Shown in pieces: positions 5,210 through 30,430 of a DNA stretch of 43,884 nucleotides (positions within the stretch are counted from its first letter, which is position 1; each line of letters begins with the position of its first letter). The stretch comes from Streptosporangiales bacterium. Its GTDB lineage: Bacteria > Actinomycetota > Actinomycetes > Streptosporangiales > WHST01. The stretch is taken from assembly GCA_009379955.1 (NCBI GenBank), contig WHST01000048.1, positions 1 through 43,884 on the forward strand, in the 5' to 3' direction. The notes under the pieces were generated by a model. The model worked only from the letters and a program-made list of their open reading frames with translations. It was not told the DNA's origin and did no database searches. Position numbers and translations under genes: made by a program.

Positions 5210-5535
5210 CGGGCGGCCCGATTCCCGGGGAGGTGCTCGTCGGCACCGAGCCGATCCTGCTCAACGAGGGCCGGCCGACGGTGACGATGGTCGTGAACAA
5301 CGCCGGTGACCGTCCCGTCCAGGTGGGCTCGCACTTCCACTTCGCGCAGGTCAACACCGCCCTGCTGTTCGACCGCGCCGCGGCCGCGGGGCACCGGCTC
5401 GACATCCCCGCGGGCACCGCCGTCAGGTTCGAGCCCGGCCTGAGCCGGGAGGTGACCCTGGTGCCGCTCGCCGGGCGGCGGCACGTACCTAGCCTGCAGG
5501 TCGACCGCGGCGAGGAGCCCGCCGATGAGTCATGA
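5206..5535 (+). CDS. ureB: Urease subunit beta
   Basis: 109 residues. Motifs: [20 protein letters not shown] at the N-terminus, then [19 protein letters not shown], the conserved beta-strand core of UreB, and [13 protein letters not shown] near the end. It is a structural subunit of urease. It starts with GTG at 5206 within GTGA shared with the ureA stop, and its last codons overlap the ureC start by 11 bases, so the three structural genes are tightly coupled. The histidine in GSHFHF is conserved in the family. Confidence 0.96.
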
Positions 5536-12860: not shown

Positions 12861-13574
12861 GTGGAACGCATGGAGCAGCTGTCGGCGCGGCTCGCCGCGG
12901 CCACCCGCGAGGTGCATGCGCGCGCCGAGAGCTCTGCGTTCATCACCGAGTTGCTGGCCGGGCGGCTGCCCGCGTCCGCGTACGCCGGCATGCTCGCGCA
13001 GCACTACTACATCTATGCGGCCCTGGAGCGCACCGCGGACCAGCTGCGCTCGCATCCGGTCGCCGGACAGTTCGTCTTCGACGACCTCGCCAGGTTGCCC
13101 GCACTCGACGTCGACCTGCCCTGGCTGCTCGGGCACGACTGGCGCCTCGAGCACGCGCCCACGGTCGGCACCCAGGCCTATGCGGACCGGATCGTCGACG
13201 CGTGCACCCGGTGGCCGACGGCGTTCATCGCGCACCACTACACCCGCTACATCGGCGACCTCTCGGGCGGCAGGATCATCAAGACCCTGGTCAGCCGCAC
13301 GTACGGCTTCGCCGAGGACGGCGTACGGTTCTACAGCTTCTCCGGCATCGCCAAGCCCAAGCGGTTCAAGGACGCCTACCGGCGGCGGCTCGACGCCATC
13401 GACCTCACCGACGCCGAATGCGACGAGCTGACCGACGAGGCGATCACGGCGTTCCGGCACAACATCACGGTCTTCGAGGAGCTCGAGCAGTGCCTACCCC
13501 GGCAACGCGACGACGTGATCGGCCGCGGTCACCGCACCGCATCGAGACGTTCCGACGGACGGCCGGGACGATGA
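12861..13574 (+). CDS. Biliverdin-producing heme oxygenase
   Basis: 237 residues, all-alpha. The proximal heme ligand is His19 in REVHARAE; the distal helix signature is YTRYIGDLSGGRIIKTL, with a QHYYIYAALE segment near residue 52. The enzyme opens heme to biliverdin, CO and Fe2+ using reducing equivalents from a ferredoxin reductase or NADPH system, here most likely to recover iron. The GTG at 12861 opens the frame, but the ATG at 12870 lies about seven bases beyond the -10-like hexamer and could be a leaderless start. The stop overlaps the following alcohol dehydrogenase gene (ATGA). The iron box just upstream supports iron-dependent repression. Confidence 0.93.
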   Translation: MERMEQLSARLAAATREVHARAESSAFITELLAGRLPASAYAGMLAQHYYIYAALERTADQLRSHPVAGQFVFDDLARLPALDVDLPWLLGHDWRLEHAPTVGTQAYADRIVDACTRWPTAFIAHHYTRYIGDLSGGRIIKTLVSRTYGFAEDGVRFYSFSGIAKPKRFKDAYRRRLDAIDLTDAECDELTDEAITAFRHNITVFEELEQCLPRQRDDVIGRGHRTASRRSDGRPGR

Positions 13575-14875
13575 GGGCTCTCGTCTTCCACGGTCGCGGT
13601 GACCTGCGGCTGGAGGACCGGTCGGTGCCGACACCCGCGGCGGGTGAGCTGCTGCTCGAGGTGCACGCTGTCGGGGTCTGCGGCACCGACGCGCACGAGT
13701 TCGCCTCCGGTCCGCACCTGGTCCCCCTCGCCTCGCGACACGAGGTGACCGGGCACGTCGGCCCGTTGATCCCCGGCCACGAGCTGACCGGTCGGGTCGT
13801 CGACGCCGGAGCCGGGGTCGTGGGTTTCCGCGCCGGCACCGTGGTCGCGTGCGGCGCCGGCATCAGCTGTGGCACCTGCGACCGGTGCCTGGCCGGGCGC
13901 ACGAACCTGTGTCGGCGGTACGCGACGGTCGGTCTGCAGCGCCACGGCGGACTCGCGCAGTACTGCGCCGTCCCTGCAGAGATCTGCCTCGACGCCGACG
14001 GGTACGGCCTGTCGGAGGATCTCGCCGCGCTGGCACAACCGATGTCGATCGCCGTGCACGCCTTCCGTCGCGGCCAAGCGCGCCCAGACGTCCCCGTGGC
14101 CGTGGTCGGTGTCGGTGGCATCGGCGCGTTCCTGACCTTCACCGCCGCGGAGCGCGGCGAGGTCACGGTCGTCGACCTCGACCCCGGCCGGCTGGACGTG
14201 GCCTCCGGGCTCGGCGCCACCACGGTCTGCCGTCCCGGCGAGAGCGCGGCGCTCGGCCCGGTGTTCCCCGTGGTCTTCGAGGTCACCGGCACCGCCGGCG
14301 GACTCACCACCGCGCTCGACCTGCTCGCGCCGGGAGGGCGGCTCGTCCTGGTGGGGCTGCACGACACACACCGTCCGGTCGATCTCACCCGAGCATCGCT
14401 TCGCGAGCTCGAGCTCGTGGGCACCAACGCGCACGTGGTGACAGCCGACCTGCCGGAGTCGTTGCGCCTGCTGGGCACCCGGCGCACGTCGTGGGCCGAC
14501 ATCGCGCCAACGGCACTCAGCCTCGACAGAGTCGTCGACGACGCACTGCGACCGATGATCGACGGCGGCAGCCGCGTGATCAAGGCACTCGTCGACCCGT
14601 GGGCCGACGCCCCGGCGCGACGAGACTGGCGACGGAGTGATCAACCGGGCGTGGGCGGCGTTCCCAGACGCGCGGCGGACCAGTCGTCGGGGAAGAAGAA
14701 CGCGTTCGACGTCGGCGGTGTCGGGCTCTGCACCTCGAGCCAGCGGACGGGTTCCGTGCCCTCGTTGACGAAGCCGTGCGTGGAGTTCACGCCCGTCCAC
14801 ACGATGTCGCCGGCACGCACGCACACTCGCTCGCCGTCGAGCGTGCCGATCGCCTCACCCGCCAGCAGGAAGTAG
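13571..14875 (+). CDS. Zinc-dependent alcohol dehydrogenase (butanediol/threonine dehydrogenase type) with antisense C-terminal extension
   Basis: A 434-residue medium-chain dehydrogenase. Catalytic-zinc motifs: GVCGTDAHEF near residue 36 and PGHELTGRV near 73. Structural zinc: CGTCDRCLAGRTNLC. The Rossmann motif is VVGVGGIGAFLTF. The enzyme domain ends at about residue 345 (IKALVDP), the usual family length; the frame then continues roughly 80 more residues of unrelated, low-order sequence to 14875. The last 235 bases lie antisense over the 3' end of the bicupin gene. The ancestral stop has probably been lost. It overlaps the heme oxygenase stop by four bases, so both may be iron-regulated. 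The family oxidises secondary alcohols or diols with NAD(P); the substrate is unknown. Confidence 0.85.
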   Translation: MRALVFHGRGDLRLEDRSVPTPAAGELLLEVHAVGVCGTDAHEFASGPHLVPLASRHEVTGHVGPLIPGHELTGRVVDAGAGVVGFRAGTVVACGAGISCGTCDRCLAGRTNLCRRYATVGLQRHGGLAQYCAVPAEICLDADGYGLSEDLAALAQPMSIAVHAFRRGQARPDVPVAVVGVGGIGAFLTFTAAERGEVTVVDLDPGRLDVASGLGATTVCRPGESAALGPVFPVVFEVTGTAGGLTTALDLLAPGGRLVLVGLHDTHRPVDLTRASLRELELVGTNAHVVTADLPESLRLLGTRRTSWADIAPTALSLDRVVDDALRPMIDGGSRVIKALVDPWADAPARRDWRRSDQPGVGGVPRRAADQSSGKKNAFDVGGVGLCTSSQRTGSVPSLTKPCVEFTPVHTMSPARTHTRSPSSVPIASPASRK

Positions 14876-15531
14876 ATCTCCTCGAACGGGTGGTAGTGCT
14901 CGCTCGCGGCCCTGCCCTTCGTGGCGCCCTGCGCGAACTCCACCATGAACAGCGTGTGATGCTGCGCGCCGAGGAGCCGGTCGACCAGCATCCGCACCGA
15001 GATGTTGCGGATGTTCGGTCCGTGGTACCCGGGCATGGACAACGGCCCGTACGGCGCCATGTCGTCGTCGCGGAAGCGACCGACATGCCTGTGCCGGGGA
15101 TCGGTCTCGCTCGGAGGTCCCGCCATCGCGGGGAACCCGTGACCGTCCGCGAGCACCGTCCCGGTGGAGTGGGCGGTGGCCAGGGGCTGAGGGGCACGCA
15201 CCTCCAGCCACCGCACCGGTCCTGAGCCGTCGCCTCGCCACGCGTGCGTGGTGGCCACCGGCGCGAAGCCGTAGTCGCCCGGCCCCACCTCATACGCCGA
15301 CTCGCCCACACACACGGTCGCCGAGCCTGCCAACACGTAGAACGACTCCTCGAACGCGTGGAAGTGCGCGGGGAGCGTCGCGTCCGCGGGCAGCTCGCAC
15401 AGCCGTATCTCCAGGTGGACCGAGGAGTCGCGCGCTCCTACCAGCGGCAGCACGCGTAACCCGGCGCCGGCGAACGGCGGTTCCGGCTCCCGCCACTCCT
15501 CGTCCGTCGACGTGCGCACGACATGTGGCAT
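14641..15531 (-). CDS. Bicupin protein (two cupin domains), last gene of the ABC transporter operon
   Basis: 296 residues. Cupin domain 1 contains PAHFHAFEESFYVLAGSATV; domain 2 contains SEHYHPFEEIYFLLAGEAIG. Both keep the HxH...E metal-ligand pattern. The bicupin layout recalls ureidoglycine aminohydrolase and other small-molecule enzymes, but the match is not specific. It lies 24 bases behind the LivM-type permease on the same strand and is probably co-transcribed, so it may process the transported substrate. Its last 235 bases are overlapped antisense by the alcohol dehydrogenase frame. The ATG at 15531 is well placed. Confidence 0.8.
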   Translation of the reverse strand: MPHVVRTSTDEEWREPEPPFAGAGLRVLPLVGARDSSVHLEIRLCELPADATLPAHFHAFEESFYVLAGSATVCVGESAYEVGPGDYGFAPVATTHAWRGDGSGPVRWLEVRAPQPLATAHSTGTVLADGHGFPAMAGPPSETDPRHRHVGRFRDDDMAPYGPLSMPGYHGPNIRNISVRMLVDRLLGAQHHTLFMVEFAQGATKGRAASEHYHPFEEIYFLLAGEAIGTLDGERVCVRAGDIVWTGVNSTHGFVNEGTEPVRWLEVQSPTPPTSNAFFFPDDWSAARLGTPPTPG

Positions 15532-15555: not shown

Positions 15556-16602
15556 TCACACCGACAGCCGGCGGCCGCGCGCCGAGGAGAACAGCCCCAC
15601 GACACCGCGCCTGGCGTACAACGCGAACAGCACGAGCAGCAGCCCGAGCACGACTCGGTTGGACTCGACGGGTATCTCCCAGCCGAACGGGTGGAACCCC
15701 GCCAATGCGGTTCGCAGCCACTGCTCGAGCAACACGACGATGCCCGCGCCGATCAACGGGCCCTGCCACGTACCGAGCCCACCGATCACGCAGATGAGCA
15801 CGATGTCGAGCGAGGTGCTCAGGCTGAACGTGCCCACCGGTTCGATGTAGCCGGTCTGGAACGCGTACAGTCCCCCGGCCACCCCGGCGACCGCCCCACC
15901 GAGGAGCAGAGCGCCCAACTTCACGGTCGTCGTGCGCACGCCGAGGACGGCCGCGGCGTCCTCGTCCTCGCGTATCGCACGTAACGCGTAGCCGAGGTTC
16001 GAGTGCTGCACGACGAACGCGAGAGCGGTGGCGACGACGACGAGGGCGAGGAACGCGTAGAAGAAGAGAGCGGCGATCGGCCGGGTACCGGTCACGGGCG
16101 CGGTCGTGTAGAGCCCGTTGGCACCGCGCGTGATGCTCAGGTTGGCCGCGGCCGACAGCATGAGGAACGTGATGACCAGCGTGAAGATGGCGAAGTAGTG
16201 GCCACGTAGTCGCAGGGTCGCCAGGCCCACGGGCAACGCGAGGATCGCGGCGACCAGGCCGGCGATCGGCAGCGTCGTCCAGACGCTCCAGCCGAGCTGG
16301 TTGTCGAGGATCGCGGAGGTGTAGACGCCCGTACCGAAGAACACGACCATGCCGAAGTTGAGGTATCCCCCGAACCCGCCGAGCAGGTTCCAGCCCTGTG
16401 CGACGGCCGCGAACATGAGGACCGTGGTGAGGGTCGTCACCACCCCCAGCTTCAGCGTGTACGCCATGGGCGTGAGTGATGCGAAGGCGACGAGCGCGAC
16501 GGTCGGTCCGACCCACCGGGGCAGCCGACGCGTCCGCTTCCTGGTCGACCGGGCGACGTGCGCGCCCGAGGCCCCGCTCGGCTCTTCCTCCTGCACGGTC
16601 AT
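15556..16602 (-). CDS. Branched-chain amino acid-type ABC transporter permease (LivM family)
   Basis: 348 residues. A 35-residue basic cytoplasmic leader is followed by about nine membrane segments. Signatures: WNLLGGFGGYLNFGMVVFFG near the third segment and the EAA-like loop AIREDEDAAAVLGVRTTTVK (ALRAIREDExAAxxxGxxxxxxK) that contacts the ATPases. It forms the channel with the LivH-type permease. The operon order is substrate-binding protein, LivG, LivF, LivH, LivM, bicupin. Start ATG at 16602, eight bases after the LivH-type gene ends. Confidence 0.92.
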   Translation of the reverse strand: MTVQEEEPSGASGAHVARSTRKRTRRLPRWVGPTVALVAFASLTPMAYTLKLGVVTTLTTVLMFAAVAQGWNLLGGFGGYLNFGMVVFFGTGVYTSAILDNQLGWSVWTTLPIAGLVAAILALPVGLATLRLRGHYFAIFTLVITFLMLSAAANLSITRGANGLYTTAPVTGTRPIAALFFYAFLALVVVATALAFVVQHSNLGYALRAIREDEDAAAVLGVRTTTVKLGALLLGGAVAGVAGGLYAFQTGYIEPVGTFSLSTSLDIVLICVIGGLGTWQGPLIGAGIVVLLEQWLRTALAGFHPFGWEIPVESNRVVLGLLLVLFALYARRGVVGLFSSARGRRLSV

Positions 16603-16609
16603 CGCCGCC

Positions 16610-17482
16610 TCACATCGCCCGCACTGCTCTACCGCGCAGCCCCTCGCGGCGCACGATCAAGGCGAGGGCGAGCAGCGCATACACCGCGAGATAGACGTAC
16701 CGGAAGGGCAGCAGCGCACCCATCAACGCTTCGGCGATGCCGAGCACGAGGCCGGCCAGCAGGGTGTTCCACACGCTGCCCAGGCCGCCGATGATCACGA
16801 CGAGGAATGCCCAGGCCAGCCACCGCACGTGACCCTGCGGGCTGAACGGCACGCTGTAGGCGAGCACCACCCCACCGAACCCGGCGAGCGCGACGCCTCC
16901 CACGAACACCCATGCCGACAACCGGCGGACACGTATCCCGAGCATCGAGGCGACGTCGCGGTTCTGCGCCAGGCCCCGCATCGCCGTCCCCGTCAGCGTA
17001 CGGGTGAGGAACAGATGCAGGCCGATCATCAGGACGAGCGTGAGGACGGCACCCACCAGACGTGCGACCGGCACGTTGACCGGCCCGAGGTGGATCACGT
17101 CGGACAGGTAACCGAGCGGCACGGTGTAGGTGTCGGTGCTGAAGCGCAGGATCGCGACGCTCTCCACGATCACCATCAGACCGAAGAACACGAGGAGCAC
17201 GGTGAGGTCGGCCTCACGCGTGAGGCGCCGAACGACGGTGCGCTCGATGCCCGCACCCAAGGCGACGAACAGGCCCACGACGAGCACCACGGTCACGAGC
17301 GGGTCGACGTTCCACCCACTCACGAACTGCCAGGCGAGGAGGGACCCCAGGACGAGCAGCGCGCTGTGCGCGATGTTGACGACGCCAAGGATGCCGAGCA
17401 CCAGGCTGAGCCCGACCGCGACGGCCGCATAGATCATGCCGAGCAGCAGGCCGGTCACCATCGCCTGCGCAAGGGTGCTCAC
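16610..17482 (-). CDS. Branched-chain amino acid-type ABC transporter permease (LivH family)
   Basis: 290 residues with about eight membrane segments. It begins with the typical MVTGLLLGMIYAAVAVGLSLV and has the EAA-like loop MRGLAQNRDVASMLGIRVRRL before the last segments. It pairs with the LivM-type permease. Start is GTG at 17482, overlapping the LivF stop by four bases (GTGA), so translation is coupled. The substrate class cannot be read from permeases; branched-chain-type systems also import urea, amides and aromatic acids. Confidence 0.92.
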   Translation of the reverse strand: MSTLAQAMVTGLLLGMIYAAVAVGLSLVLGILGVVNIAHSALLVLGSLLAWQFVSGWNVDPLVTVVLVVGLFVALGAGIERTVVRRLTREADLTVLLVFFGLMVIVESVAILRFSTDTYTVPLGYLSDVIHLGPVNVPVARLVGAVLTLVLMIGLHLFLTRTLTGTAMRGLAQNRDVASMLGIRVRRLSAWVFVGGVALAGFGGVVLAYSVPFSPQGHVRWLAWAFLVVIIGGLGSVWNTLLAGLVLGIAEALMGALLPFRYVYLAVYALLALALIVRREGLRGRAVRAM

Positions 17483-18261
17483 GAGGCCCTCCCCCCGGTC
17501 GCGTCGAGCTGGAGCCAGCTCTTGATCAGCTGATCCAACCGGTCACCGAACTGCGCGCGCTCGCCGTCGAGATGGTTGCGCCCGTAGGCGAGCGTGTAGA
17601 CGTAGTCGGCGAGCTCGACGGCTGCCTGGACGTTCTGCTCGACGAGCAGGACGGTGCGCCCCTCACGCTTGATCCGTCCCAGCTCGTCGTACACGGTGTC
17701 GACGAGGACGGGCGACAGGCCGACCGAAGGCTCGTCGATCAGGATCACCGCGGGATCCAGCACGAGGGTGCGGCCGAACTCGAGGAGGCGCGCCTGACCT
17801 CCGGAGAGGCTGCCCGCAGGTTTGTCGCGCACCTGGCGCAGCGTCGGGTACCGGTCGAACATCGCATCCACGGCCGCGGTCAGCGCCGATCGTCGCCTGC
17901 GCAGGTGCCATGCACCGAGCCTGAGGTTGTCCAGCACGGTCAGCTGGGGGAAGACCGAGCGGCCCTGAGGCAGCAAGGCCATGCCGAGCGCCGTGCGCGC
18001 GTCGACGGGGACTCGCGTCACGTCGGCACCGGCGAGAGTGATCCTTCCGGTGCGCGGCTGCAGGAAACCGTAGAGCACGCGTAGCGCCGTGGACTTGCCC
18101 GACCCGTTCGGCCCGAGCACCGCCGTCACCTGGCCCGTGCGTGCCCACAGGGACACGTCGTCCAGCACGATGTCGTGGCTCAGGTAGCCGGCCGTCACAT
18201 GCTCCATGACCAGTCCGGCCGTGGCGGAGCCCACTGCCGTCTGCGCAGCGTCGGGCGTCAT
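17479..18261 (-). CDS. ABC transporter ATP-binding protein (LivF family)
   Basis: 260 residues. Walker A GPNGSGKST, Q-loop region LPQGRSVFPQLTVLDNL (the LivF-type signature), ABC signature LSGGQ, Walker B VILIDEPSVGLSP and switch histidine region LLVEQN are all present. It energises import together with the LivG-type ATPase. The ATG at 18261 overlaps the upstream stop by four bases. An N-terminal extension of about 18 residues precedes the first strand. Confidence 0.93.
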   Translation of the reverse strand: MTPDAAQTAVGSATAGLVMEHVTAGYLSHDIVLDDVSLWARTGQVTAVLGPNGSGKSTALRVLYGFLQPRTGRITLAGADVTRVPVDARTALGMALLPQGRSVFPQLTVLDNLRLGAWHLRRRRSALTAAVDAMFDRYPTLRQVRDKPAGSLSGGQARLLEFGRTLVLDPAVILIDEPSVGLSPVLVDTVYDELGRIKREGRTVLLVEQNVQAAVELADYVYTLAYGRNHLDGERAQFGDRLDQLIKSWLQLDATGGRAS

Positions 18262-18995
18262 GATGCCTTCCGTGACGTGCCGCGGGTACCCAGGTACGCC
18301 GTGATGACCTTGGCGTCGTCGGAGACAACGGCCGGAGTGCCCTGGCAGATGACCGCGCCGTCGCCCAGGCAGGTCACCTCGTCGGAGAGCCGCATCAGGT
18401 CGGGGATCTCGTGGCTCACGACCACGAACGACGTGCGCTGCCTGTTCCGCTCGCGGATGCGCTCGTGCATCACCTGCTTGAGACTGGGATGCACGCCCGC
18501 GAACGGCTCGTCCATGAGCACCGTGCTCGGCTCGGTCATCAGGGCCCGCACGAACTCGAGCAGCTTCTGTTGTCCGCCGGACAGCTCGCTCGCCGGTGTG
18601 TCGCGATGTGCGGTGAGCCCCACGAACTCGAGCAGCTCCTCGGCCCTGCGATGCAACACGCGGCGCGGCTCCCGGTGGTGCAGGGTCGGGACGAGCAGGT
18701 TCTCGAATGCGGTGACGGTGGTGAACACCCGTGCCGTCTGGAAGGTACGAGTGACGCCGTGGCGGACGAACTCCCTGCTCGAGCGTCCGGCCAGCTCTGT
18801 TCCGCCGACGAGGATCGACCCGCCATCGGGCCGGAGCGCCCCGTTGAGCAGGTTGAGCGTCGTGGTCTTGCCTGATCCGTTCGGCCCGATCAGCCCGACG
18901 ATCGTGCCCGGGGGTACGCGAAGCGAGACATCACGCACGACGTGCTGACCGCCGAAGGACTTGTTCAGCCCGGTGGCGACGACGCCGGATGCCAT
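18258..18995 (-). CDS. ABC transporter ATP-binding protein (LivG family)
   Basis: 245 residues. Walker A GPNGSGKTT, the LivG-typical RTFQTARVFTTVTAFENLLV, signature LSGGQQKLLEF, Walker B TVLMDEPFAGVHP and a VVSHEI switch segment are visible. It starts at ATG 18995 (MASGVVATGLNKSFGG), where homology to the family begins; the open frame extends further upstream but that part is not protein-like. It lies 23 bases after the substrate-binding protein gene. Confidence 0.93.
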   Translation of the reverse strand: MASGVVATGLNKSFGGQHVVRDVSLRVPPGTIVGLIGPNGSGKTTTLNLLNGALRPDGGSILVGGTELAGRSSREFVRHGVTRTFQTARVFTTVTAFENLLVPTLHHREPRRVLHRRAEELLEFVGLTAHRDTPASELSGGQQKLLEFVRALMTEPSTVLMDEPFAGVHPSLKQVMHERIRERNRQRTSFVVVSHEIPDLMRLSDEVTCLGDGAVICQGTPAVVSDDAKVITAYLGTRGTSRKAS

Positions 18996-19018: not shown

Positions 19019-20248
19019 TCACCTCGACGGGACGACCGCTCGACCGGTGGCATCGCGCTTCGGCCAGATCACCTCGTTGTGGTCCTTCTGGTACTGGACG
19101 AGCAGCGCACCGAACTTGATCGTGCCGTCGGAGTTGTACCTGATGTTCCCGACCGCCGTCCGGAACGTCTTGCCCTCCATGTAGTCGCGGATCTTCTGCT
19201 GGTCGAGCGTCTTCGCACCGTTCACGGCCTGCTGCATCACCTGGAGGATGGCGAGCGCCACGGCGCCGTAGGCCGGCATCTCCTCGTAGTCGAACTTCTT
19301 CTCGAGCATCGAGAACAGTTCCTTCTGCATCGGGTATCCCTGGGTGGGCCACGCCGTCGTCGTCGCCATGACTCCGCTGCCCGCCGCACCCAAGTCGCCC
19401 CACGTCGGCAGCGTCGTGACCTGGGAGCCGCACGAGCAGTAGAAGCGCGGCCGGAAGTCCTGCTCGTGAGCGGTCTTCGCCAGGAGTGCCGCATCGTCGG
19501 GCAGGCTCAGCTGGATGAACGCGTCCGGCTTCTTCGCCTTCGCCCGCTGGATCAGGCCGTTGACATCGGACGCCGTCTGCTCGTACTCCTCGTCGAAGAC
19601 GACCTTGATGCCCAGCTGCTTGGCGTAGTTCAGCACCCCGTCCTTGCCGTCGTAGCCCGAACGTACGGCGAGCGGGAACGGGTTCTGTGCCGTGACGATG
19701 GCCAGCGTCTTCGGCCGTTGGCTCGACGGAAGCGACTTGAAGTACTCGAACAGCGGCAACGCATACTGCGTGTCCTGGTACGGGTAGCTGTTCACGATCA
19801 GCTTGTTCCTCGCGTGCAGCTCCTGGCTGACGAACCCGCCGTTCCACAGGACCTTGCCGGCACGTTCGGTGATCGGCACGATCGCTCCCCCGACGGCTGT
19901 CGCATAAGGCGCGAGCAGCAGATCGGCGTTGTCCTCGTTGATGAGTTTCTGGTAGAGCTGCTGCGCGGTGGTGGGGTTGCTCTCGTCGTCGTAGATGACG
20001 AGCTTCACCTTGCGTCCGAGCAGACCGCCATGCTTGTTGACGTCAGCGACCCAGAAGTCGTATGCGGCTCGGTAGGCGGCCGACGACGTGGCGTACACGC
20101 CGGAGAGTCCGAGCGTCCCGCCGACGACGATCGGTGTGTTCTTGTCGCCGGCGCCCTCATCGTCCTCACCCGTGGCGCATGCCGAGATCAGGAGGCCGAG
20201 TACGAGCAGCAACGCTGCGGTCAGGTGCACGTTTCTTCTCGGTCGCAT
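19019..20248 (-). CDS. Substrate-binding lipoprotein of the branched-chain-type ABC transporter
   Basis: 409 residues. The signal peptide MRPRRNVHLTAALLLVLG is followed by a lipobox (LISAC) at about residues 20-24, so it is a lipid-anchored extracellular receptor. The mature protein begins IVVGGTLGLSGVYATSS, typical of LivJ/amide-binding periplasmic proteins, and contains KVKLVIYDDESNPTTAQQLYQKLI. The ATG at 20248 is preceded by AGGAG; an upstream GTG at 20275 is less likely. A palindrome at 20418 and a GntR gene lie upstream, suggesting ligand-responsive control. The ligand is unknown. Confidence 0.92.
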   Translation of the reverse strand: MRPRRNVHLTAALLLVLGLLISACATGEDDEGAGDKNTPIVVGGTLGLSGVYATSSAAYRAAYDFWVADVNKHGGLLGRKVKLVIYDDESNPTTAQQLYQKLINEDNADLLLAPYATAVGGAIVPITERAGKVLWNGGFVSQELHARNKLIVNSYPYQDTQYALPLFEYFKSLPSSQRPKTLAIVTAQNPFPLAVRSGYDGKDGVLNYAKQLGIKVVFDEEYEQTASDVNGLIQRAKAKKPDAFIQLSLPDDAALLAKTAHEQDFRPRFYCSCGSQVTTLPTWGDLGAAGSGVMATTTAWPTQGYPMQKELFSMLEKKFDYEEMPAYGAVALAILQVMQQAVNGAKTLDQQKIRDYMEGKTFRTAVGNIRYNSDGTIKFGALLVQYQKDHNEVIWPKRDATGRAVVPSR

Positions 20249-20417
20249 GCCTACGGCCGCTCCTTTGCGTGCCACCCCTGTCGGTCAGTCCGGCGGGCTG
20301 ATACGCCCTCGGCGATCGGCGGCCGCACCTGCTGTTGCTGCAACGGTTGCGGCAACATGCCTTCAACGAGATGACGGGGCGGCAGTCGATCGATCATCGG
20401 ATCAGGGGTCTGGAAAG

Positions 20418-20428
20418 TGGCTTAGCCA
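20418..20428. promoter_or_regulatory. Candidate GntR (FadR-type) operator upstream of the ABC transporter operon
   Basis: TGGCTTAGCCA is a perfect palindrome with a three-base centre, inside AGTGGCTTAGCCA, which recurs identically upstream of the GntR gene at 21410. Its form (short inverted repeat, 3-base spacer) fits sites of FadR-subfamily GntR regulators. It lies 170 bases before the lipoprotein start and just downstream of the GntR gene. Confidence 0.65.
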
Positions 20429-20516
20429 GTTTGACACCCGCCCGGAGACTCGTCAACGGGTCAACAGGAAGGCGCACCCCTGCACACGGTCCGCCGCCCA
20501 GACCTGCGCGCTTGGA

Positions 20517-21317
20517 CTACTTCCTGGCCCGACGGCGACCCCGGGCCTTACTCCGGAGCCGCGCGTCGACGTGACGGTGCATCGTCTCGTGATGACGCAG
20601 CACCGCCTGCTCGACCGCCACGACATCCCGCATGGCGACAGCCTCGAGGATGGGCTCGTGCAGCGCGAGGAGATCTTCGCCACCGGCCTCGCGAAGCCAG
20701 TCCGGTTCAGCCTGCGTCTTGACCCAGTGCTCGTACTCGAAGGACAGGATCGACGTGTGCACGCTCTCGTACATGGCCGTGAGGTACGGATTCCTGGCCG
20801 CGCCGACGATCGCCGCGTGGAAGACGGTGTCCGCCGCGATCCAGGCCGAGGTGTTGCCCGCGGCGTCGGCCAGGCGGCCCAGAGCGGCCCGGATCGTGGC
20901 CAGCTCCTTCTTGGTCACCGGCGGCGCCCGTCTGGCCGCCTCCTGGACGCCGACCGTCTCGAGCCACAGCCGCAGTTGCATGAGATCGTGGATGGACTTG
21001 TGATCCTCGGCGAGCATGAGACTCATCGATGCGGTGACCATCGTCGCCGGCCTGCGCAGGACGTACGCTCCGGACCCGCGTCGAATCTCGACCATCCCCA
21101 TCAACGACAACGTGCGCAGTGCCTGACTGACCGTCGGGCGGCTCGTGTCGAACCTGATGGCGAGCTCACGCTCCGACGGGAGACGCGATCCCTCGGGGAG
21201 ATCCTCGCGCACGATGAACTGCCGGATCTGCTCGGAGACCGCGTCGGACAGTCGCGTGACAGACGCGGCGCCGACACCGGTCATGTCGACGGCCCGACTC
21301 GGCTTCTGCTGGGTCAA
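20517..21317 (-). CDS. GntR-family transcriptional regulator, FadR (FCD) subfamily
   Basis: 266 residues. A winged helix-turn-helix at about residues 23-90 contains LPEGSRLPSERELAIRFDTS and VSQALRTLSLMGMVEIRRG. A helical FCD ligand-binding domain follows (HKSIHDLMQLRLWLETVGVQ, DTVFHAAIVGAARN, HHETMHRHV), with the histidines and aspartate that hold a metal in this family. The tail is strongly basic. It probably represses the ABC transporter operon behind it and perhaps the divergent transketolase genes through the two TGGCTTAGCCA sites, including its own promoter region. Confidence 0.92.
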   Translation of the reverse strand: MTQQKPSRAVDMTGVGAASVTRLSDAVSEQIRQFIVREDLPEGSRLPSERELAIRFDTSRPTVSQALRTLSLMGMVEIRRGSGAYVLRRPATMVTASMSLMLAEDHKSIHDLMQLRLWLETVGVQEAARRAPPVTKKELATIRAALGRLADAAGNTSAWIAADTVFHAAIVGAARNPYLTAMYESVHTSILSFEYEHWVKTQAEPDWLREAGGEDLLALHEPILEAVAMRDVVAVEQAVLRHHETMHRHVDARLRSKARGRRRARK

Positions 21318-21409
21318 CTCGCGAATCCCCCTCCGGTACGTCGCTTCGCGCCACTCCTCGCTACGAGGATAGTGCCTTGACAGCCGCGCGGACCGCGGTG
21401 ATGATGAAG

Positions 21410-21427
21410 TGGCTTAGCCAATTAGCC
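21410..21427. promoter_or_regulatory. Second candidate GntR operator, in the GntR/transketolase intergenic region
   Basis: TGGCTTAGCCA at 21410-21420 is identical to the site at 20418, here extended by a further ATTAGCCA half-site. It lies 93 bases upstream of the GntR start and about 115 bases before the transketolase ATG, so one bound repressor could control both directions. Confidence 0.65.
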
Positions 21428-21535
21428 ACCGGTTAGGACTCCTCTATTCCTCCCCCGGTCACACCTCCCTCGGCCGCCGACGGCGCCCACGATCCGCGGC
21501 GGGTCGCCATCGGGATCCGCCTGCGCGCGGTACGC

Positions 21536-22279
21536 ATGGTCGCGAAGCAGGGGTTCGGCTACCTGGGTCAGGCACTGTCGTCGGCCGAGCAGTTCGCCGC
21601 ACTCTACGCCGCCGTGCTGCGGCCGGGAGTGGACCGCGTGGTCTGCTCGCCGGGACACTACGTCGTCGCCGCCTTCGCGGCCGCCGTGGAGATCGGCCTC
21701 GCCGACGAGGAGACGCTCGCGACGTACGGTGAGAACGGATCATCCGTCGAAGCCATCGGCTCGGAGCGGACAAAGGTGCTCGACCACACCTGCGGGTCGC
21801 TCGGCCAGGGACTGTCGGCGGCCGCGGGCTTCGCGTTGTCGGATCGGCTCACGGGAGCGACGGAGCGGCGCACGTTCGCGTTCGTGAGCGACGGTGAGCT
21901 GGAGGAGGGACAGCTCTGGGAGGCCGCGATGTTCGCCGGCCACCACCGCCTCGGTCGCATCACTGTGCTGCTCGACGCGAACAACTCGCAGGTCGACGGC
22001 CCGGTCGACACCATCACCACCCTCGAACCCATCGCCGACAAGTGGACCTCGTTCGGCTGGGACGCCGTCGAGGTCGACGGGCACGATGTCGCCGCCGTGA
22101 TCCGGGCACTCGAGGCCGCGGTCGACGCCGCCCGTCCGCACGTCATCGTCTGCCGGACGTCGACGAGACACGGCCTGCGTTGCCTGCCGCCGGACGCCGA
22201 CGGCCACTTCGTCAAGTTGCCCGGCGAGCTCGCCACGCGCGCGGTCGCAGAGCTCACCACGGAGCTGGAGCGGACATGA
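21536..22279 (+). CDS. Transketolase, N-terminal (thiamine diphosphate-binding) subunit
   Basis: At least 247 residues. ThDP-binding features are CGSLGQGLSAAAGFALSD, GDGEL-like SDGELEEGQLWEAAMFA and DANNSQVDGPVD. It is the N-terminal half of a split transketolase; its partner overlaps by four bases. The annotated ATG at 21536 is almost certainly too far in: the upstream frame is open to 21437 and encodes the usual family helix (RRVAIGIRLRAVR), but it contains no ATG, GTG or TTG. Candidate starts there are ATT at 21446 or CTG at 21521. Split transketolases transfer two-carbon units; in catabolic operons their substrates are often uncommon sugars. Confidence 0.88.
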   Translation: MVAKQGFGYLGQALSSAEQFAALYAAVLRPGVDRVVCSPGHYVVAAFAAAVEIGLADEETLATYGENGSSVEAIGSERTKVLDHTCGSLGQGLSAAAGFALSDRLTGATERRTFAFVSDGELEEGQLWEAAMFAGHHRLGRITVLLDANNSQVDGPVDTITTLEPIADKWTSFGWDAVEVDGHDVAAVIRALEAAVDAARPHVIVCRTSTRHGLRCLPPDADGHFVKLPGELATRAVAELTTELERT

Positions 22280-23289
22280 GCAGCGCACTCGAGGCTCCGT
22301 ACCGCACCATGCTCAAACCGTATGGCCGGGCACTGGTCGAGGTCGCGAAGGAGCGCGACGAGATCGTCTGCCTGAGTGGTGACCTCACCCGCCAGTGCGA
22401 GGTCGATCTCTTCCAGGACGAGCTGCCCGACCGGTTCGTGCAGGCCGGCATGGCGGAGGCGAACATGATGGGCGTCGCCGCCGCGTTGGCTCGCTCGGGA
22501 CACCTGCCCTTCGTGCACACCTTCGGCGTCTTCGCGACCCGTCGGGCGTACGACCAGGTCGCCAACGCGATCGCGTACCCACGCCTGCCGGTGCGGATCG
22601 TCGGGTTCATGCCGGGTGTCTCGAGTCCCGGCGGGCCGAGCCACCAGGCCATCGACGACGTCGCGCTGATGCGTGCGTTACCGGGCATGACCGTCATCGA
22701 CGTCGCCGACGCCGTCGAGACACGGCAGGTCGTCCGCGCCGTCGTCGACCTCCCGGGTCCGGCCTACATCAGGCTCAAGCGCGGCGAGATCCCCGTCATC
22801 TTCGGCGACGACCATCGCCTCCGCCTCGATCGCGCACAGGTTCTCACCGAGGGTACGGACGTCGCGCTGTTCGCCAGCGGGATGTTGCTCGCCTCCGCAC
22901 TCGCCGCGGAACGGCTGTTGCGCGCGCACGAGGTCTCGGTGTCCGTCGTCAACGTGCCGGTGACGAAGCCCCTGGACGTCGCGACCGTGCGAGGCGTCGC
23001 GGCCGAGGCACAGGTGGTGGTGACCGCCGAGAACCATTCGGTCATCGGCGGCCTCGGCTCCGCGGTGGCCGAGGCCTGTGCAGAGGCGGGGATCGGACGT
23101 CCGCTGCACCGGATCGGACTCCAGGACGTGTTCGCGGAGGGGGCACAGACGGCTGCGTACCTGTTCGAGAGGTACGGGCTGACGACACAGCATCTGGTGA
23201 CGACGGTGTGGCAGGCCTTGCGCCGCGCGGATCCGGTACCGCGAGCCGCGACGATGACAAGCGAACCGGGCGAGTACGCACCGGTCTGA
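22276..23289 (+). CDS. Transketolase, C-terminal (pyrimidine-binding) subunit
   Basis: 337 residues. The pyrimidine-binding motif region FVQAGMAEANMMGVAAALARSG holds the catalytic Glu of transketolases. YDQVANAIAYPRLPVRIVG and the C-terminal domain with TAENHSVIGGLGSAVAEACAE are typical. It works as a heteromer with the upstream subunit; ATG at 22276 overlaps that stop (ATGA). It is probably followed in the same transcript by the M24 protein. Confidence 0.93.
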   Translation: MSSALEAPYRTMLKPYGRALVEVAKERDEIVCLSGDLTRQCEVDLFQDELPDRFVQAGMAEANMMGVAAALARSGHLPFVHTFGVFATRRAYDQVANAIAYPRLPVRIVGFMPGVSSPGGPSHQAIDDVALMRALPGMTVIDVADAVETRQVVRAVVDLPGPAYIRLKRGEIPVIFGDDHRLRLDRAQVLTEGTDVALFASGMLLASALAAERLLRAHEVSVSVVNVPVTKPLDVATVRGVAAEAQVVVTAENHSVIGGLGSAVAEACAEAGIGRPLHRIGLQDVFAEGAQTAAYLFERYGLTTQHLVTTVWQALRRADPVPRAATMTSEPGEYAPV

Positions 23290-23307
23290 CCGTCCCTCGA
23301 GGAGCGC

Positions 23308-24627
23308 ATGATGGTCAAGAACTTCTCCGCGGCGACGCAGAGCACGCCGGTAGCGTCACCCGGTGCCACCATGGCGACCGACTGGGAGCAACGGGTCGAC
23401 TTCACCCGGTTGCGCACCGAGCGTTTCGCGAAGGTTCGTGACGCGCTCGAACGTTCCGAGCTCGGCGCGTTGATCCTCTTCGACATGAACAACATCCGCT
23501 ACGCCACCGCGACGCACATCGGAAACTGGGCGCGGGACAAGCTCTTCCGATGCGCCCTGGTGGTTCGCGGTCACGATCCGATCCTGTGGGACATCGGCTC
23601 GGCGGCCCGCACGCATCAGACCTTCGCGCCGTGGAACGACCGAGAGAACTGGCGGGCCGGCATATCGAGCTGGCGCGGCGCCATTCCCGAGGACGTCGGT
23701 GTCGAGCGGGGCAATGCGAAGCGGATCGCCGACATCCTGCGCGAGCACGGGGTGGCGGGCGAGCCGATCGGCGTCGACGTCGTGGAGATACCCGTGCTCA
23801 AGGCACTCGAGCGCGAGGGCCTGCACATCGAGGACGGCCACGGCCTCATGCAGGATGTCCGGGCGATCAAGACCGCTGACGAGATCGCCCTGCTCGACCA
23901 CTCCGCCGCGTTGGTGGACGGCGCGTACGACGAGCTCTACCGGTACCTGCGCGCGGGCGTGCGGGAGAACGACTGCGTGGCCCTGGTCAACCACTACCTC
24001 TACGAGAACGGCTCCGAGGAGGTCGAGGCCGTCAACTCCATCTCGGGAGAACGCTGCAGCCCGCACCCGCATGTCTTCTCGGACCGGATGCTCCGACCAG
24101 GCGACACCGCGTACTTCGACATCATCCACTCCTTCAACGGCTACCGCACGTGCTACTACCGCACCTTGAACGTGGGCAGCGCCAACCGTCAGCAACGCGA
24201 CGCCTACGGCCGGGCGCGGGAGTTCATGGACAACGCGATCGCGGAGATCCGGCCGGGCGCGACGTCCGCCGACGTCGTGCGGCACTTCCCCGCGGCGCAG
24301 GAGTTCGGCTTCGCGACCGAGGAGGAGGCGTTCGGCCTGCAGTACTGCCACGGCCTCGGCCTGTCCAACTGGGAGCGGCCGTTGATGAGCCGGTACCACT
24401 CCTTCGAGCACCCGGTGCGGCTCGAGGAAGGCATGGTGTTCGCGATCGAGACCTACTGGCCGACGCCGGACGGATCGGCGGCCGCCCGGATCGAGGAAGA
24501 GGTCGTCGTCACCCGACACGGCTGCGACCTGCTCACCCGCTTCCCGGCCGACCAGCTCTACGTGGCGGGCACGCGCATGTACACAGGAGCAGACCTACCC
24601 TCCCCGAACGGTCAGGGCTCCCGTTGA
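23308..24627 (+). CDS. M24-family (creatinase/aminopeptidase P fold) protein with an altered metal site
   Basis: 439 residues. The creatinase N-terminal domain (GALILFDMNNIRYATATHIG) and the pita-bread C-terminal domain are both present. Of the five usual metal ligands, Asp271, His348 (CHGLGLSNWERP), Glu381 (AIETYW) and Glu396 (IEEEVVVT) remain. The second aspartate, normally in a GYxxDxTR motif, is Cys282 (GYRTCYYRT). A classic dinuclear Xaa-Pro peptidase is therefore unlikely; a creatinase-like hydrolase or lyase is more plausible. Start: ATG at 23308 behind GAGGAGC; ATG at 23371 is an alternative. It follows the transketolase pair by 18 bases. Confidence 0.85.
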   Translation: MMVKNFSAATQSTPVASPGATMATDWEQRVDFTRLRTERFAKVRDALERSELGALILFDMNNIRYATATHIGNWARDKLFRCALVVRGHDPILWDIGSAARTHQTFAPWNDRENWRAGISSWRGAIPEDVGVERGNAKRIADILREHGVAGEPIGVDVVEIPVLKALEREGLHIEDGHGLMQDVRAIKTADEIALLDHSAALVDGAYDELYRYLRAGVRENDCVALVNHYLYENGSEEVEAVNSISGERCSPHPHVFSDRMLRPGDTAYFDIIHSFNGYRTCYYRTLNVGSANRQQRDAYGRAREFMDNAIAEIRPGATSADVVRHFPAAQEFGFATEEEAFGLQYCHGLGLSNWERPLMSRYHSFEHPVRLEEGMVFAIETYWPTPDGSAAARIEEEVVVTRHGCDLLTRFPADQLYVAGTRMYTGADLPSPNGQGSR

Positions 24628-24718: not shown

Positions 24719-26299
24719 CTACGGCCGACGGGACGTCGCTCTCGCCGCGGCGGCCTGTCGGTGCCGCAGCCGGTGGGCCGAGGCGCGTGGGTCGTCCACG
24801 ACCGGCGGGATGTCCGCATCGACGACGCGTGTTCCGCGTGGCCCCGCAGGGCCGAACACGTACCGCGGCTCGGGTACGAGACCGAGGAGCGCGAGGTACA
24901 CCACCGCGGCGAGCCCGATCGTGACGAACAGGCTGATGTCGACGCCACCCGCGACGTTGCGCAACGGACCCTCGATCAGCGGCGGATAGTTCGCGAACAG
25001 CAACCCGCCGACGGCCGCCGGCACCCACGCCGCGATTCCCCGCCAGTTGACGCCGGCACGGAACCAGTACCGGCCGCCGATCCGCCCCTCGTTGAACACC
25101 TGCACGTCGGCCGGTGAGTAGTAGCCGCGGCGCACGATGTACCCGAGCGTCATGATGATCATCCAGGGGGTGGTGCAGATGACGATCGCGCCGACGAACG
25201 CGTTGACACTGTCGATCAGGTTGAAGACCAGCCGGCCGATGAGGATGAAGAGGAAGGCGAGCGCACCGATGAGCAGCGACGCCTGCACCCGGGTGAAGCG
25301 GGGGAACACCGACGAGAAGTCGAGACCGGTGCCGTAGAGCGACGTCACGCCGGTGGACATCCCACCGAGGAATGCCACGACCATGAGCAGCAGCGCGTAC
25401 CACAACGGCGAGATCTGGATCAGAGCGAATACGTAGTCCTCCTCCCCCGCGACGAGGGTGGCGGTCGCGACGCCGAAGAAGAACGGCACGAGCGTTGCGA
25501 GCTGCGCGAGGAAGGTCGCTGCGAGCAGGCGGGAGGGCCTGGTCGCGGCGGGGATGTACCGGGTCCAGTCGCCGAGGAATGCACCGAAGGACACCGGGTT
25601 GCCCATCACGATGAGCGCCGAGAGCACGAAGGTCGGCCAGAACTCGCCGAGTGCGTACGCCTGCGGACCAGGATCGTAGCCGGCGTCGAAGCGCGACGCG
25701 TACGCCACGATGCCGACCAGCATCAGCACGGTGTTGCCGATGACGACGACCTTGTTGACCAGCAGCATGAACTGGTAGCCGTAGACCACCACGACGATCA
25801 CGAGTGCGCCGAGCACCGCGTAGGCGAGTCCACGGGTCAGGTCGGAGTCGGGCACGTCGAAGAGTCGGGCTGCCGCGCCGACGAGTGCGTCGCCGCTGAC
25901 CCACACCGAGATCGAGTAGAACGCGAGCGCGGTGAGCAGCGAGAGGAACGAGCCCACCACCCGACCGCGGACGCCGAGATGGGCGCCGGAGGAGACCGCG
26001 TTGTTCGTGCCGGTCGCCGGCCCGAACAGCCCCATCGGCATGAGGATCACGGCGCCCGCGACGACACCGACGACCGTCGCCGCTACGGCCTGCCACCACG
26101 ACAGGCCGAGCAGTACGGGGAACGTCCCGAGGATGATGGTAGCGAAGGTGTTCGCGCCGCCGAACTGGATGCGGAACAGGTCGAACGGTCGTGCGGTGCG
26201 GTGCTCGTCGGGGATGGTGTCGATGCCGTGCTGCTCGATCTCGGTGGCCCTCGGTGAGCGTCGCTGCGCCGCGCCGTCGGCCCGCTCCGACCCGTTCAT
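24719..26299 (-). CDS. NCS1-family nucleobase/hydantoin/allantoin permease
   Basis: 526 residues with about twelve membrane segments. The N-terminus (IEQHGIDTIPDEHRTARPFDLFRIQFGGANTFATIILG) is the NCS1 signature around the first transmembrane helix. WTRYIPAATRPSRLLAATFLAQ and a cytoplasmic, basic C-terminus also fit. NCS1 proteins import cytosine, uracil, allantoin, hydantoins or thiamine-like compounds with protons or sodium. It is divergent from the cyclase gene, with a 104-base shared promoter region, suggesting joint control. Confidence 0.93.
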   Translation of the reverse strand: MNGSERADGAAQRRSPRATEIEQHGIDTIPDEHRTARPFDLFRIQFGGANTFATIILGTFPVLLGLSWWQAVAATVVGVVAGAVILMPMGLFGPATGTNNAVSSGAHLGVRGRVVGSFLSLLTALAFYSISVWVSGDALVGAAARLFDVPDSDLTRGLAYAVLGALVIVVVVYGYQFMLLVNKVVVIGNTVLMLVGIVAYASRFDAGYDPGPQAYALGEFWPTFVLSALIVMGNPVSFGAFLGDWTRYIPAATRPSRLLAATFLAQLATLVPFFFGVATATLVAGEEDYVFALIQISPLWYALLLMVVAFLGGMSTGVTSLYGTGLDFSSVFPRFTRVQASLLIGALAFLFILIGRLVFNLIDSVNAFVGAIVICTTPWMIIMTLGYIVRRGYYSPADVQVFNEGRIGGRYWFRAGVNWRGIAAWVPAAVGGLLFANYPPLIEGPLRNVAGGVDISLFVTIGLAAVVYLALLGLVPEPRYVFGPAGPRGTRVVDADIPPVVDDPRASAHRLRHRQAAAARATSRRP

Positions 26300-26351
26300 G
26301 CCGGTCTCCTCGGTTCAAGGACGCTGCCCCCGACGAGCGGTACCCTAGACG

Positions 26352-26390
26352 GATGTTTCGTGATAGGCAACATCTGTTTACCAGTACAGA
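26352..26390. promoter_or_regulatory. Inverted repeats in the NCS1/cyclase divergent promoter
   Basis: Two dyads sit side by side: GATGTT (26352-26357) with AACATC (26369-26374), 11 bases apart, and TCTGT (26373-26377) with ACAGA (26386-26390). This is the most AT-rich part of the 104-base gap. They could be sites for the XRE-cupin regulator encoded just downstream of the cyclase. Confidence 0.4.
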
Positions 26391-26403
26391 CAGAGGAGCA
26401 GTG

Positions 26404-27072
26404 ATGCACGTCCGCCGGATCGTCGACCTGTCCGTCCCCGTCGGGCAGCACACTCAGGTCTATCCGGGCGATCCCGTCCCTCGGTTCACGACCCACTCGA
26501 CGATCGCCGAGCACGGCTTCAACCTCCTGCGCGTCGAGATGGGATCACAGTCCGGCACCCATGCCGACGCGCCCTACCACTTCGAGGCCGACGCACCGAC
26601 GATCGACCGAGTGCCGCTCGAACGGTTCGTCGGCACCGGCGTCGTCGCCGACGTACGTGGGGTACCCGCTCGCGCGCCGATCGGCTGGGACTCCCTCGCC
26701 CCGTACGCCGGCTCCCTCGGGCCTGACCACATCCTGTTGCTGCACACGGGCTGGTCGGCGCACTTCGGTAGCGCGCGCTACTTCGACCATCCCTACCTCG
26801 ATGCCGACGCCTGCCGTCGCGTCCTCGAGCTCGGCGTCCGCACGATCGGGATCGACGCCATCAACATCGACGAGACACCGGACGCCGACCACCCCGGCTG
26901 CGGATACCCCGTGCACCATCTGCTCGCAGCTGCCCGCGGCATCATCATCGAGAACCTGCGCAACCTCGAGGCCGTCGACTTTCCCGACCCGCTGGTGTCC
27001 GCACTGCCGGTGGCGTTCGAGAACGCCGACGGCGCACCTGTCCGCGCGGTCGCCATGCAGTGGGGGGCGTAG
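26404..27072 (+). CDS. Cyclase family protein (kynurenine formamidase-like metal hydrolase)
   Basis: 222 residues. The metal-binding motif SGTHADAPYHF (HxGTHxDxPxH-type, near residue 52) and the IDAINIDETP segment identify the cyclase/KynB fold. Members hydrolyse N-formylkynurenine, isatin or related amides. The family's second-sphere histidine may be in PVHHLLAAARGIIIENLRNL. The ATG at 26404 follows GAGGAG. It is divergent from the NCS1 permease and one base before the XRE-cupin gene, suggesting uptake and opening of an amide- or ring-containing nitrogen compound. Confidence 0.88.
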   Translation: MHVRRIVDLSVPVGQHTQVYPGDPVPRFTTHSTIAEHGFNLLRVEMGSQSGTHADAPYHFEADAPTIDRVPLERFVGTGVVADVRGVPARAPIGWDSLAPYAGSLGPDHILLLHTGWSAHFGSARYFDHPYLDADACRRVLELGVRTIGIDAINIDETPDADHPGCGYPVHHLLAAARGIIIENLRNLEAVDFPDPLVSALPVAFENADGAPVRAVAMQWGA

Positions 27073-27073
27073 C

Positions 27074-27640
27074 GTGCCGAGACGGTCGAACGGTCCGCCG
27101 GACGTGCGCATCGGTGGGCGGCTACGTGCGGCGCGGCGGGCCCGCGGGCTGACACTGGAGAAGGTCGCCGGCAAGACCGGAGTCACCAAGGGATTCCTCA
27201 GCCGGCTCGAGCGCGACGACGTCTCCCCGTCCGTCGCCTCGCTCGTCGCGGTCTGCAACGTGCTCGGGCTCCGCGTCGGTGACCTGTTCGAGCCCGCCGA
27301 GACGTCGCTGGTTCGGGCCGGCGAGGGACCGCCGATCAACTTCGGCGGTCGCGACGTCGCCGAGGTGCTCCTCACCCCCGGCACGCAGAGTCAGCTGCGC
27401 GTGATCCACTCGCTCATCGCACCCGGTGGCGGCAGCGGTGACGAGGAGTACTCCCTCGACTGCGACGCCGAGTTCGTCTATGTCATCGCGGGCGAGCTGG
27501 AACTCGTCCACGACGGACAGGCAGCCCGGCTGTCGACAGGCGATGCCTTCACCTTCCCCGGAAGAGCGCCGCACACCTGGCACAACCCGTCACCCGACGA
27601 GACCTGCAGCGTCCTCTGGGTTCTCTCACCCGCTCCATGA
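27074..27640 (+). CDS. XRE-family regulator with C-terminal cupin sensor
   Basis: 188 residues. The helix-turn-helix at about 12-67 reads IGGRLRAARRARGLTLEKVAG ... TKGFLSRLERDDVSPSVASL. The C-terminal cupin has EFVYVIAGELELVHDG and GDAFTFPGRAPHTWHNPS. This is the SutR/PuuR-like class that senses small molecules and controls adjacent catabolic or transport genes. It starts with GTG at 27074, one base after the cyclase stop, and probably regulates the cyclase and NCS1 promoters. Confidence 0.9.
   Translation: MPRRSNGPPDVRIGGRLRAARRARGLTLEKVAGKTGVTKGFLSRLERDDVSPSVASLVAVCNVLGLRVGDLFEPAETSLVRAGEGPPINFGGRDVAEVLLTPGTQSQLRVIHSLIAPGGGSGDEEYSLDCDAEFVYVIAGELELVHDGQAARLSTGDAFTFPGRAPHTWHNPSPDETCSVLWVLSPAP

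Positions 27641-27735: not shown

Positions 27736-30430
<2,695 letters not shown>

Follow-up and report, generated by a model that had tools for sequence, protein, structure and literature searches.

A repeated palindromic sequence as the probable operator of a GntR regulator over a LIV-type transporter operon and a transketolase-like/M24 operon

The stretch of DNA analysed here (43,884 nucleotides, the window) carries two copies of a 13-base sequence that are very probably operators of the neighbouring FadR/FCD-type GntR regulator, a presumed repressor of two operons, one encoding a LIV-type ABC transporter and the other a split transketolase-like pair (TKN, TKC) followed by an M24 protein. 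This assignment comes from sequence comparison and rests above all on the way the site tracks the GntR orthologue across related loci (13/13 versus 0/7). In related soil bacteria the same operator appears, from such comparisons, to govern the same transporter and enzyme set, and the gene set is likely an undescribed catabolic pathway. A preliminary description had placed the 13-mer upstream of the transporter operon and in the gap between the GntR and transketolase genes, where we found it exactly, at 20416-20428 and 21408-21420. The gene names it had given (ABC transporter operon, here of LIV type, bicupin, GntR, here of FCD type, split transketolase, M24) were confirmed by profile matches. 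The features are as follows.

13571-14587, plus strand: Zn-dependent alcohol dehydrogenase, convergent to the transporter operon; a 48% relative lies inside the L166 transporter operon
14641-15531, minus strand: bicupin, last gene of the transporter operon (PF07883 in two stretches; other matches weak)
15556-16602, minus strand: LivM-like permease (PF02653)
16610-17482, minus strand: LivH-like permease (PF02653)
17479-18261, minus strand: LivF-like ABC ATPase (PF00005)
18258-18995, minus strand: LivG-like ABC ATPase (tblastn to L166 and others; ATPase identity and start from reading of the sequence)
19019-20248, minus strand: LIV-type ABC substrate-binding protein, SBP (PF13458)
20416-20436, no strand: putative operator A (AGTGGCTTAGCCA followed by a degenerate third half-site), some 170 bp 5' of the SBP start
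20517-21317, minus strand: GntR regulator of the FadR/FCD subfamily, 266 aa (PF00392 and PF07729 above cut-offs)
21377-21405, plus strand: promoter-like TTGACA-17-GATGAT, a consensus match only, its end 5 bp short of the operator B palindrome
21408-21428, no strand: putative operator B (AGTGGCTTAGCCAATTAGCCA), in the divergent GntR/TKN gap, directly downstream of the sigma-70-like promoter
21503-22279, plus strand: transketolase-like N subunit, TKN; homology starts upstream of the first ATG (21536)
22276-23289, plus strand: transketolase-like C subunit, TKC (profile matches and comparison with relatives)
23308-24627, plus strand: M24 pita-bread protein; Cys282 takes the place of the second metal-binding Asp (profile, alignment, AlphaFold model)

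Both copies of AGTGGCTTAGCCA read on the plus strand, with no further exact copy in the window, and their core TGGCTTAGCCA (20418-20428 and 21410-21420) is a perfect palindrome about a single central base. At site B the palindrome is followed by a third half-site (TGGCTTAGCCAATTAGCCA, 21410-21428), which recurs at site A with one mismatch (TGGCTTAGCCAGTTTGACA, 20418-20436). The preliminary description had proposed a genome-wide motif scan, and the two sites passed this check. Across the organism's own genome (6,610,571 bases in 225 contigs), the palindrome TGGCTTAGCCA occurs twice, both times here, while TGGCTNAGCCA is found at five places, with the T/A centre solely at the two window sites. 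Sites B and A are also the two best genome matches to the extended 19-bp operator TGGCNNNGCCANTTNGCCA (0 and 1 mismatch, respectively); one other place, C50:10519, has 1 mismatch to it and lies amid long open frames.

As a bare repeat, the 13-mer pair is weak and unremarkable evidence. The window holds 40 distinct 13-mers that recur within 1.1 kb, against a second-order Markov mean of 6.3, and 25 of 100 simulations contained at least one such close repeat with a palindromic core, so repeat statistics alone would not reject a chance recurrence in GC-rich sequence. The pair stands above chance because it lies between genes, ranks highest genome-wide and is conserved: the core is unique to these sites, the extended motif has its top two matches here, and the site recurs in all 13 GntR-bearing genomes. 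On the conservation, we rejected the chance explanation, to which we attach a negligible probability.

Related loci were gathered with the M24 and transketolase proteins as queries, and 20 split-transketolase loci, the window included, were counted after dropping L161 (the same region as L041) and L167 and L169 (no TKN). The pattern [TC]GGCnnnGCCA was present within 360 bp upstream of TKN in 13/13 genomes with a GntR orthologue and in 0/7 without one; the Fisher p of 1.3e-5 ignores relatedness, and the genomes are related, so that the counts are not independent. The CGGC variant was let in after looking at the sites, and the 360-bp span was set after seeing L168, whose site is 355 bp out; counting just the exact core gives 9/13 versus 0/7 (p 0.005). 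Exact TGGCN3GCCA was found in 7 of the 11 non-window loci holding GntR, on a background of 15 exact sites in 351,808 bp of the same loci. After the palindrome, the third half-site follows the consensus TTnGCCA, with C at position 18 in 92% of 25 rows (one L168 site being included twice). The excluded L167 (genome G509) has GntR and M24, and a second contig of that genome, L237, bears its TKN start; an operator free of mismatches lies there at 333, where the TKN fragment has its 5' end, and adding this locus would give 14/14. On the negative side, a 36% partial GntR match in G648 (L163) was scored as lacking an orthologue, and no GntR match was found in the genomes of L039, L040 and L042 in a search that included no genome known to match.

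Could the sites belong to another regulator, with the GntR gene merely a neighbour? The operator-bearing locus in G580 has no GntR gene within 20 kb, as such a reading would predict, but two GntR copies lie elsewhere in G580. For L160, the one apparent exception in the count (sites present, GntR absent nearby), the genome holds two 56% GntR copies that are 84% and 80% identical to the L158 GntR. Moreover, across the 20 loci the site tracks the GntR orthologue rather than the transketolase, and the GntR gene itself has it upstream in three cases (window, L158 and L239). We therefore regard another regulator as very unlikely and retain the neighbouring GntR protein as the probable binder.

A LIV transporter lies near the operator-bearing locus in six cases (window, L037, L160, L165, L166, L168), and a site precedes the SBP gene in five of them, including L037, L165, L160 and L166; the L168 transporter has no operator of its own. 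The transporters of L037, L165 and L160 are non-orthologous (25-42% identity where matched) and still preceded by the operator, which indicates that the operator follows function. One relative, L166, from another family of the order, keeps the full syntenic set, with bicupin-ADH-LivMHFG-SBP divergent from TKN-TKC-M24-GntR and a single operator between them. The TKC orthologue is sporadic, occurring in 13 of 296 other same-order genomes and absent from two same-genus genomes; a plasmid search with TKC at 1e-70 gave no match. Statements on gene order rest on tblastn because the gene caller was crude and missed several genes (e.g. TKN in L158 and GntR in L157, L165 and L166).

The GntR protein scored 62.1 for PF00392 (cut-off 27) and 80.6 for PF07729 (cut-off 24.3), and its recognition helix, SR(P/A)(T/I)(V/I)xQA(L/I)R, is near-invariant among relatives. 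The DTxFH, HxPI and HH motifs of the FCD domain, which supply an Asp and His set, are conserved in 11 of 12 distinct GntR rows (L038 is truncated). In FCD domains the Asp and three His residues bind metal. Escherichia coli NanR is both the nearest NCBIfam and PDB match, i.e. the closest solved relative, with a score (NF003011) of 120.4 against a family cut-off of 260. Operators of FadR/FCD GntR proteins are described, in the part of the source available to us, as palindromes with 3-nt spacing and TKGT/ACMA boxes (Suvorova et al. 2015, PMC4494728). Here the inner T/A of these boxes is C/G in every listed site, the sites having been sought that way. This departure of the candidate operator from the FadR consensus at the inner base pair counts against the GntR assignment.

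A GntR dimer would bind the palindrome TGGC-N3-GCCA, probably aided by the third half-site. Bound at operator B, it would shut off both gntR and the divergently oriented TKN-TKC-M24 operon at their promoters; bound at operator A, it would do the same to the SBP-LivGFHM-bicupin operon. Repression would be relieved by a metal-bound carboxylate effector, namely the compound brought in by the transporter or a pathway intermediate. The protein is most likely a repressor rather than an activator, judging from the habit of the family and from the position of operator B just behind the promoter-like site (1 found versus a shuffle mean of 0.1), which is typical of a repressor. In the TKN-TKC-M24 operon (plus strand, 21503 to 24627) gene ends overlap or nearly abut. 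The 5' end of TKN reflects either an unusual start or a base error: homology runs from about 21503, no ATG, GTG or TTG lies between the in-frame stop at 21434 and the ATG at 21536, and the alternatives are only ATT at 21446, two ATC and CTG at 21521.

On the other strand, SBP, LivG, LivF, LivH, LivM and bicupin form a tightly packed run (20248 to 14641). The transporter would import a compound that the M24 and ThDP enzymes then degrade, in an order and on a substrate that we can only propose. The regulon put forward in the preliminary description (transporter, bicupin, GntR, transketolase pair, M24) thus gains good support from phylogenetic footprinting. The bicupin is not core to it: among the other operator-bearing loci it recurs in L166 (69%), and L167 has a weak 33% match. 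The bicupin retains the conserved His/Glu in both cupins, and its predicted structure is poor (mean pLDDT 63.7). An assignment as (S)-ureidoglycine aminohydrolase was rejected (NCBIfam 26.6 versus a cut-off of 200).

For the chemistry, the preliminary description had suggested uptake of a compound that M24 hydrolyses, with transketolase moving a two-carbon unit. Both folds and the ThDP motifs are present: SDGE(L/M)xEG and SQVDG in 16/16 TKN rows and GM(A/S)E in 17/17 TKC rows. These correspond to the ThDP motif and the catalytic Glu. Against ordinary C2 transfer, three conserved transketolase histidines, one of them at the phosphate site, are lost in all 16 TKN and 17 TKC rows, which carry GYLGQA(L/M)S for GHPGGSLS, (E/P)AI(G/S)(T/S)E for GHPD and GFMPG for ATHAG. 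In transketolases these histidines line the substrate channel and the phosphate site, and their loss means that ordinary two-carbon transfer between sugar phosphates should not be taken for granted.

The M24 protein is nearest in sequence and fold to DddP and prolidases (AlphaFold mean pLDDT 80.4), with creatinase a more distant fold match. Where prolidase has YNSDxTRT, the family found here has YRTCYYRT, and the Cys replaces the second metal-ligand Asp in 37/37 aligned members, including a 32% paralogue; the remaining ligands are kept (Asp271, His348, Glu381, Glu396/397). This Cys could either coordinate metal or act as a nucleophile. With an invariant Cys in place of the metal Asp, ordinary M24 hydrolysis cannot be assumed either. 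An assignment as ectoine hydrolase was rejected, the score lying below the NCBIfam cut-off, as was one as DddP DMSP lyase (NF043017 122.2 versus a cut-off of 600, two of six ligands replaced). Two M24 paralogues lie in the same genome, at C25:55430 (L131, 54%) and C53:34850 (L132, 32%); the former sits with HIBADH, E1alpha and E1beta genes, with transketolase absent nearby, and the genome-scan match flagged one TGA in its open frame.

The pairing of M24 with transketolase chemistry is also called into question by its relatives. Among 20 regions with distant M24 relatives, at least 18 have an E1alpha/E1beta-type ThDP gene and none has a transketolase match, i.e. away from the loci compared above, the usual neighbours of the family are E1 subunits of 2-oxoacid dehydrogenases. 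On plasmids, three of the four records first viewed (L137, L138 and L139; not L136) have M24 near E1alpha/beta, E2, lipoyl dehydrogenase or SSADH genes. Conversely, L155, L157 and L164 are operator-bearing transketolase loci without M24. An enoyl-CoA-hydratase-like gene is found in these three and in L163 (not L162), that is, in four of five transketolase loci without M24, and the L155 member was confirmed.

Together with the substituted Cys and the lost histidines, these observations make M24 hydrolysis followed by ordinary C2 transfer doubtful; specialised split transketolases are known from catabolic clusters (SqwGH, in the part of PMC11659671 available), and we consider such chemistry possible but disfavoured in its plain form, and improbable overall. 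Since M24 pairs with E1 genes elsewhere and some transketolase loci lack M24, the ThDP partner and the M24 partner each seem to be exchangeable. This suggests a two-step logic, in which one enzyme would make a ketone and the ThDP enzyme would cleave it. Our tentative proposal, held at a little short of an even chance, is an undescribed catabolic regulon that unites a Cys-substituted M24 clade with a ThDP enzyme cleaving or transferring from a non-phosphorylated ketone and no longer a sugar-phosphate transketolase; elsewhere the same M24 clade would work with an E1-type ThDP complex in an equivalent C-C cleavage. That M24 itself forms the substrate of the ThDP pair is conceivable, and we hold it with some doubt.

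Further candidate members were sought by scanning the genomes of ten relatives for the operator with at most 1 mismatch and then reading the matches. In both G474 and G580 an operator precedes GntR itself and a TRZ/ATZ-type amidohydrolase gene; in addition, one precedes a malic-enzyme-like gene in G474 and one an MFS gene in G580. Scattered single matches, apparently due to chance in GC-rich sequence, turned up in each genome as well, and in most of the ten the reversed control pattern gave no fewer matches than the operator; isolated matches are thus not to be read as regulon members. In L235 (8892-8918; G580 C57:58891) the operator reads on both strands beside a gene that is GntR-like by reading, about 0.8 kb from a second amidohydrolase, a possible extra regulon member. 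HIBADH-like and SSADH-like genes lie 3' of M24 in L158 and L160.

The operator-linked amidohydrolases point to another possible chemistry, the degradation of an N-heterocycle or cyclic amide in which M24 or an amidohydrolase would open the ring, leaving a ketone for the ThDP enzyme to cleave. A second M24 gene in L042 (5596-12727) has an E1-type subunit, HIBADH, a LigB-type dioxygenase and an acetamidase/formamidase as neighbours, which hints at ring cleavage; amidase, RidA and flavin reductase genes lie near M24 on a Paenarthrobacter plasmid, and the window itself contains urease alpha and an NCS1 permease. However, no amidohydrolase was called among the operator-linked genes of the window or L166, and the neighbours vary strongly, several being plasmid mosaics. 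We consider this ring-opening route possible, somewhat on the doubtful side.

Several neighbouring genes are recorded here for completeness. M24 homologues occur on Rhodococcus and Paenarthrobacter plasmids (L136, L138, L170) with malic enzyme, RidA, amidase or flavin reductase genes, the one in L138 about 2 kb from the sulfonamide-degradation flavin reductase gene sulR. In the window, urease subunit alpha (5525-7246, plus strand) is separated by about 7 kb from the end of the transporter operon that carries the bicupin, and the gene directly 5' of the alcohol dehydrogenase (12861-13574, plus strand) presumably resembles the heme oxygenase family. Beyond M24, 24719-27640 holds a convergent NCS1-type permease (minus strand) and then a cyclase-family protein (PF04199), followed by an XRE regulator with a cupin domain (by reading); an ORF at 28196-30430 (plus strand) is catalase-peroxidase-like, KatG by reading.

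With these results the repeat becomes a defined regulon signature that can be carried over to other genomes: wherever this GntR is present, the operator could serve to find further genes of the pathway, and it has already brought in the amidohydrolases, the malic-enzyme-like gene and the MFS gene. Members of the two enzyme clades are usually annotated as "transketolase" and "Xaa-Pro peptidase", names that the conserved active-site changes suggest are misleading. The operator appears to be a variant of the FadR/FCD type already known, and the pathway appears undescribed in the literature searched: a search on the gene set found no paper among the records listed, which is weak evidence of absence given that subscription journals were mostly uncovered, a search on the operator gave nothing relevant by titles and abstracts, and one on apulose gave no match.

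As far as the available parts of the respective sources go, the system can be compared with five known ones. With FadR/FCD regulons (PMC4494728) it shares an FCD GntR protein, a palindrome with 3-nt spacing and the expectation of carboxylate effectors; those regulons use TKGT/ACMA, whereas the sites here have TGGC/GCCA and a conserved third half-site 8 bp on. An operator of three half-sites is shared with E. coli NanR, which binds three direct GGTATA repeats (PMC8012715), in contrast to the inverted pair plus one direct copy found here. DddP (4b28, 4rzy; PMC4108388) is the closest fold and sequence to M24, at about 22-23% identity; of its six metal ligands (Asp295, Asp297, Asp307, His371, Glu406, Glu421), Asp297 and Asp307 correspond to Ile and Cys in M24. 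The split transketolase of Carboxydothermus, the closest solved sequence to TKN/TKC, has the same two-chain architecture and ThDP motifs (PMC7661550), but GHPG, GHPD and THAGL are replaced here by GYLG, AIGxE and FMPGx. Finally, SqwGH, the 6-deoxy-6-sulfofructose split transketolase, is likewise a split transketolase of a catabolic pathway with an altered sugar-head-group motif (RSFHR to RAFDR, tied to a different sugar head group; PMC11659671); judged by its published description, it differs in that the His position of this motif is Met in the proteins described here.
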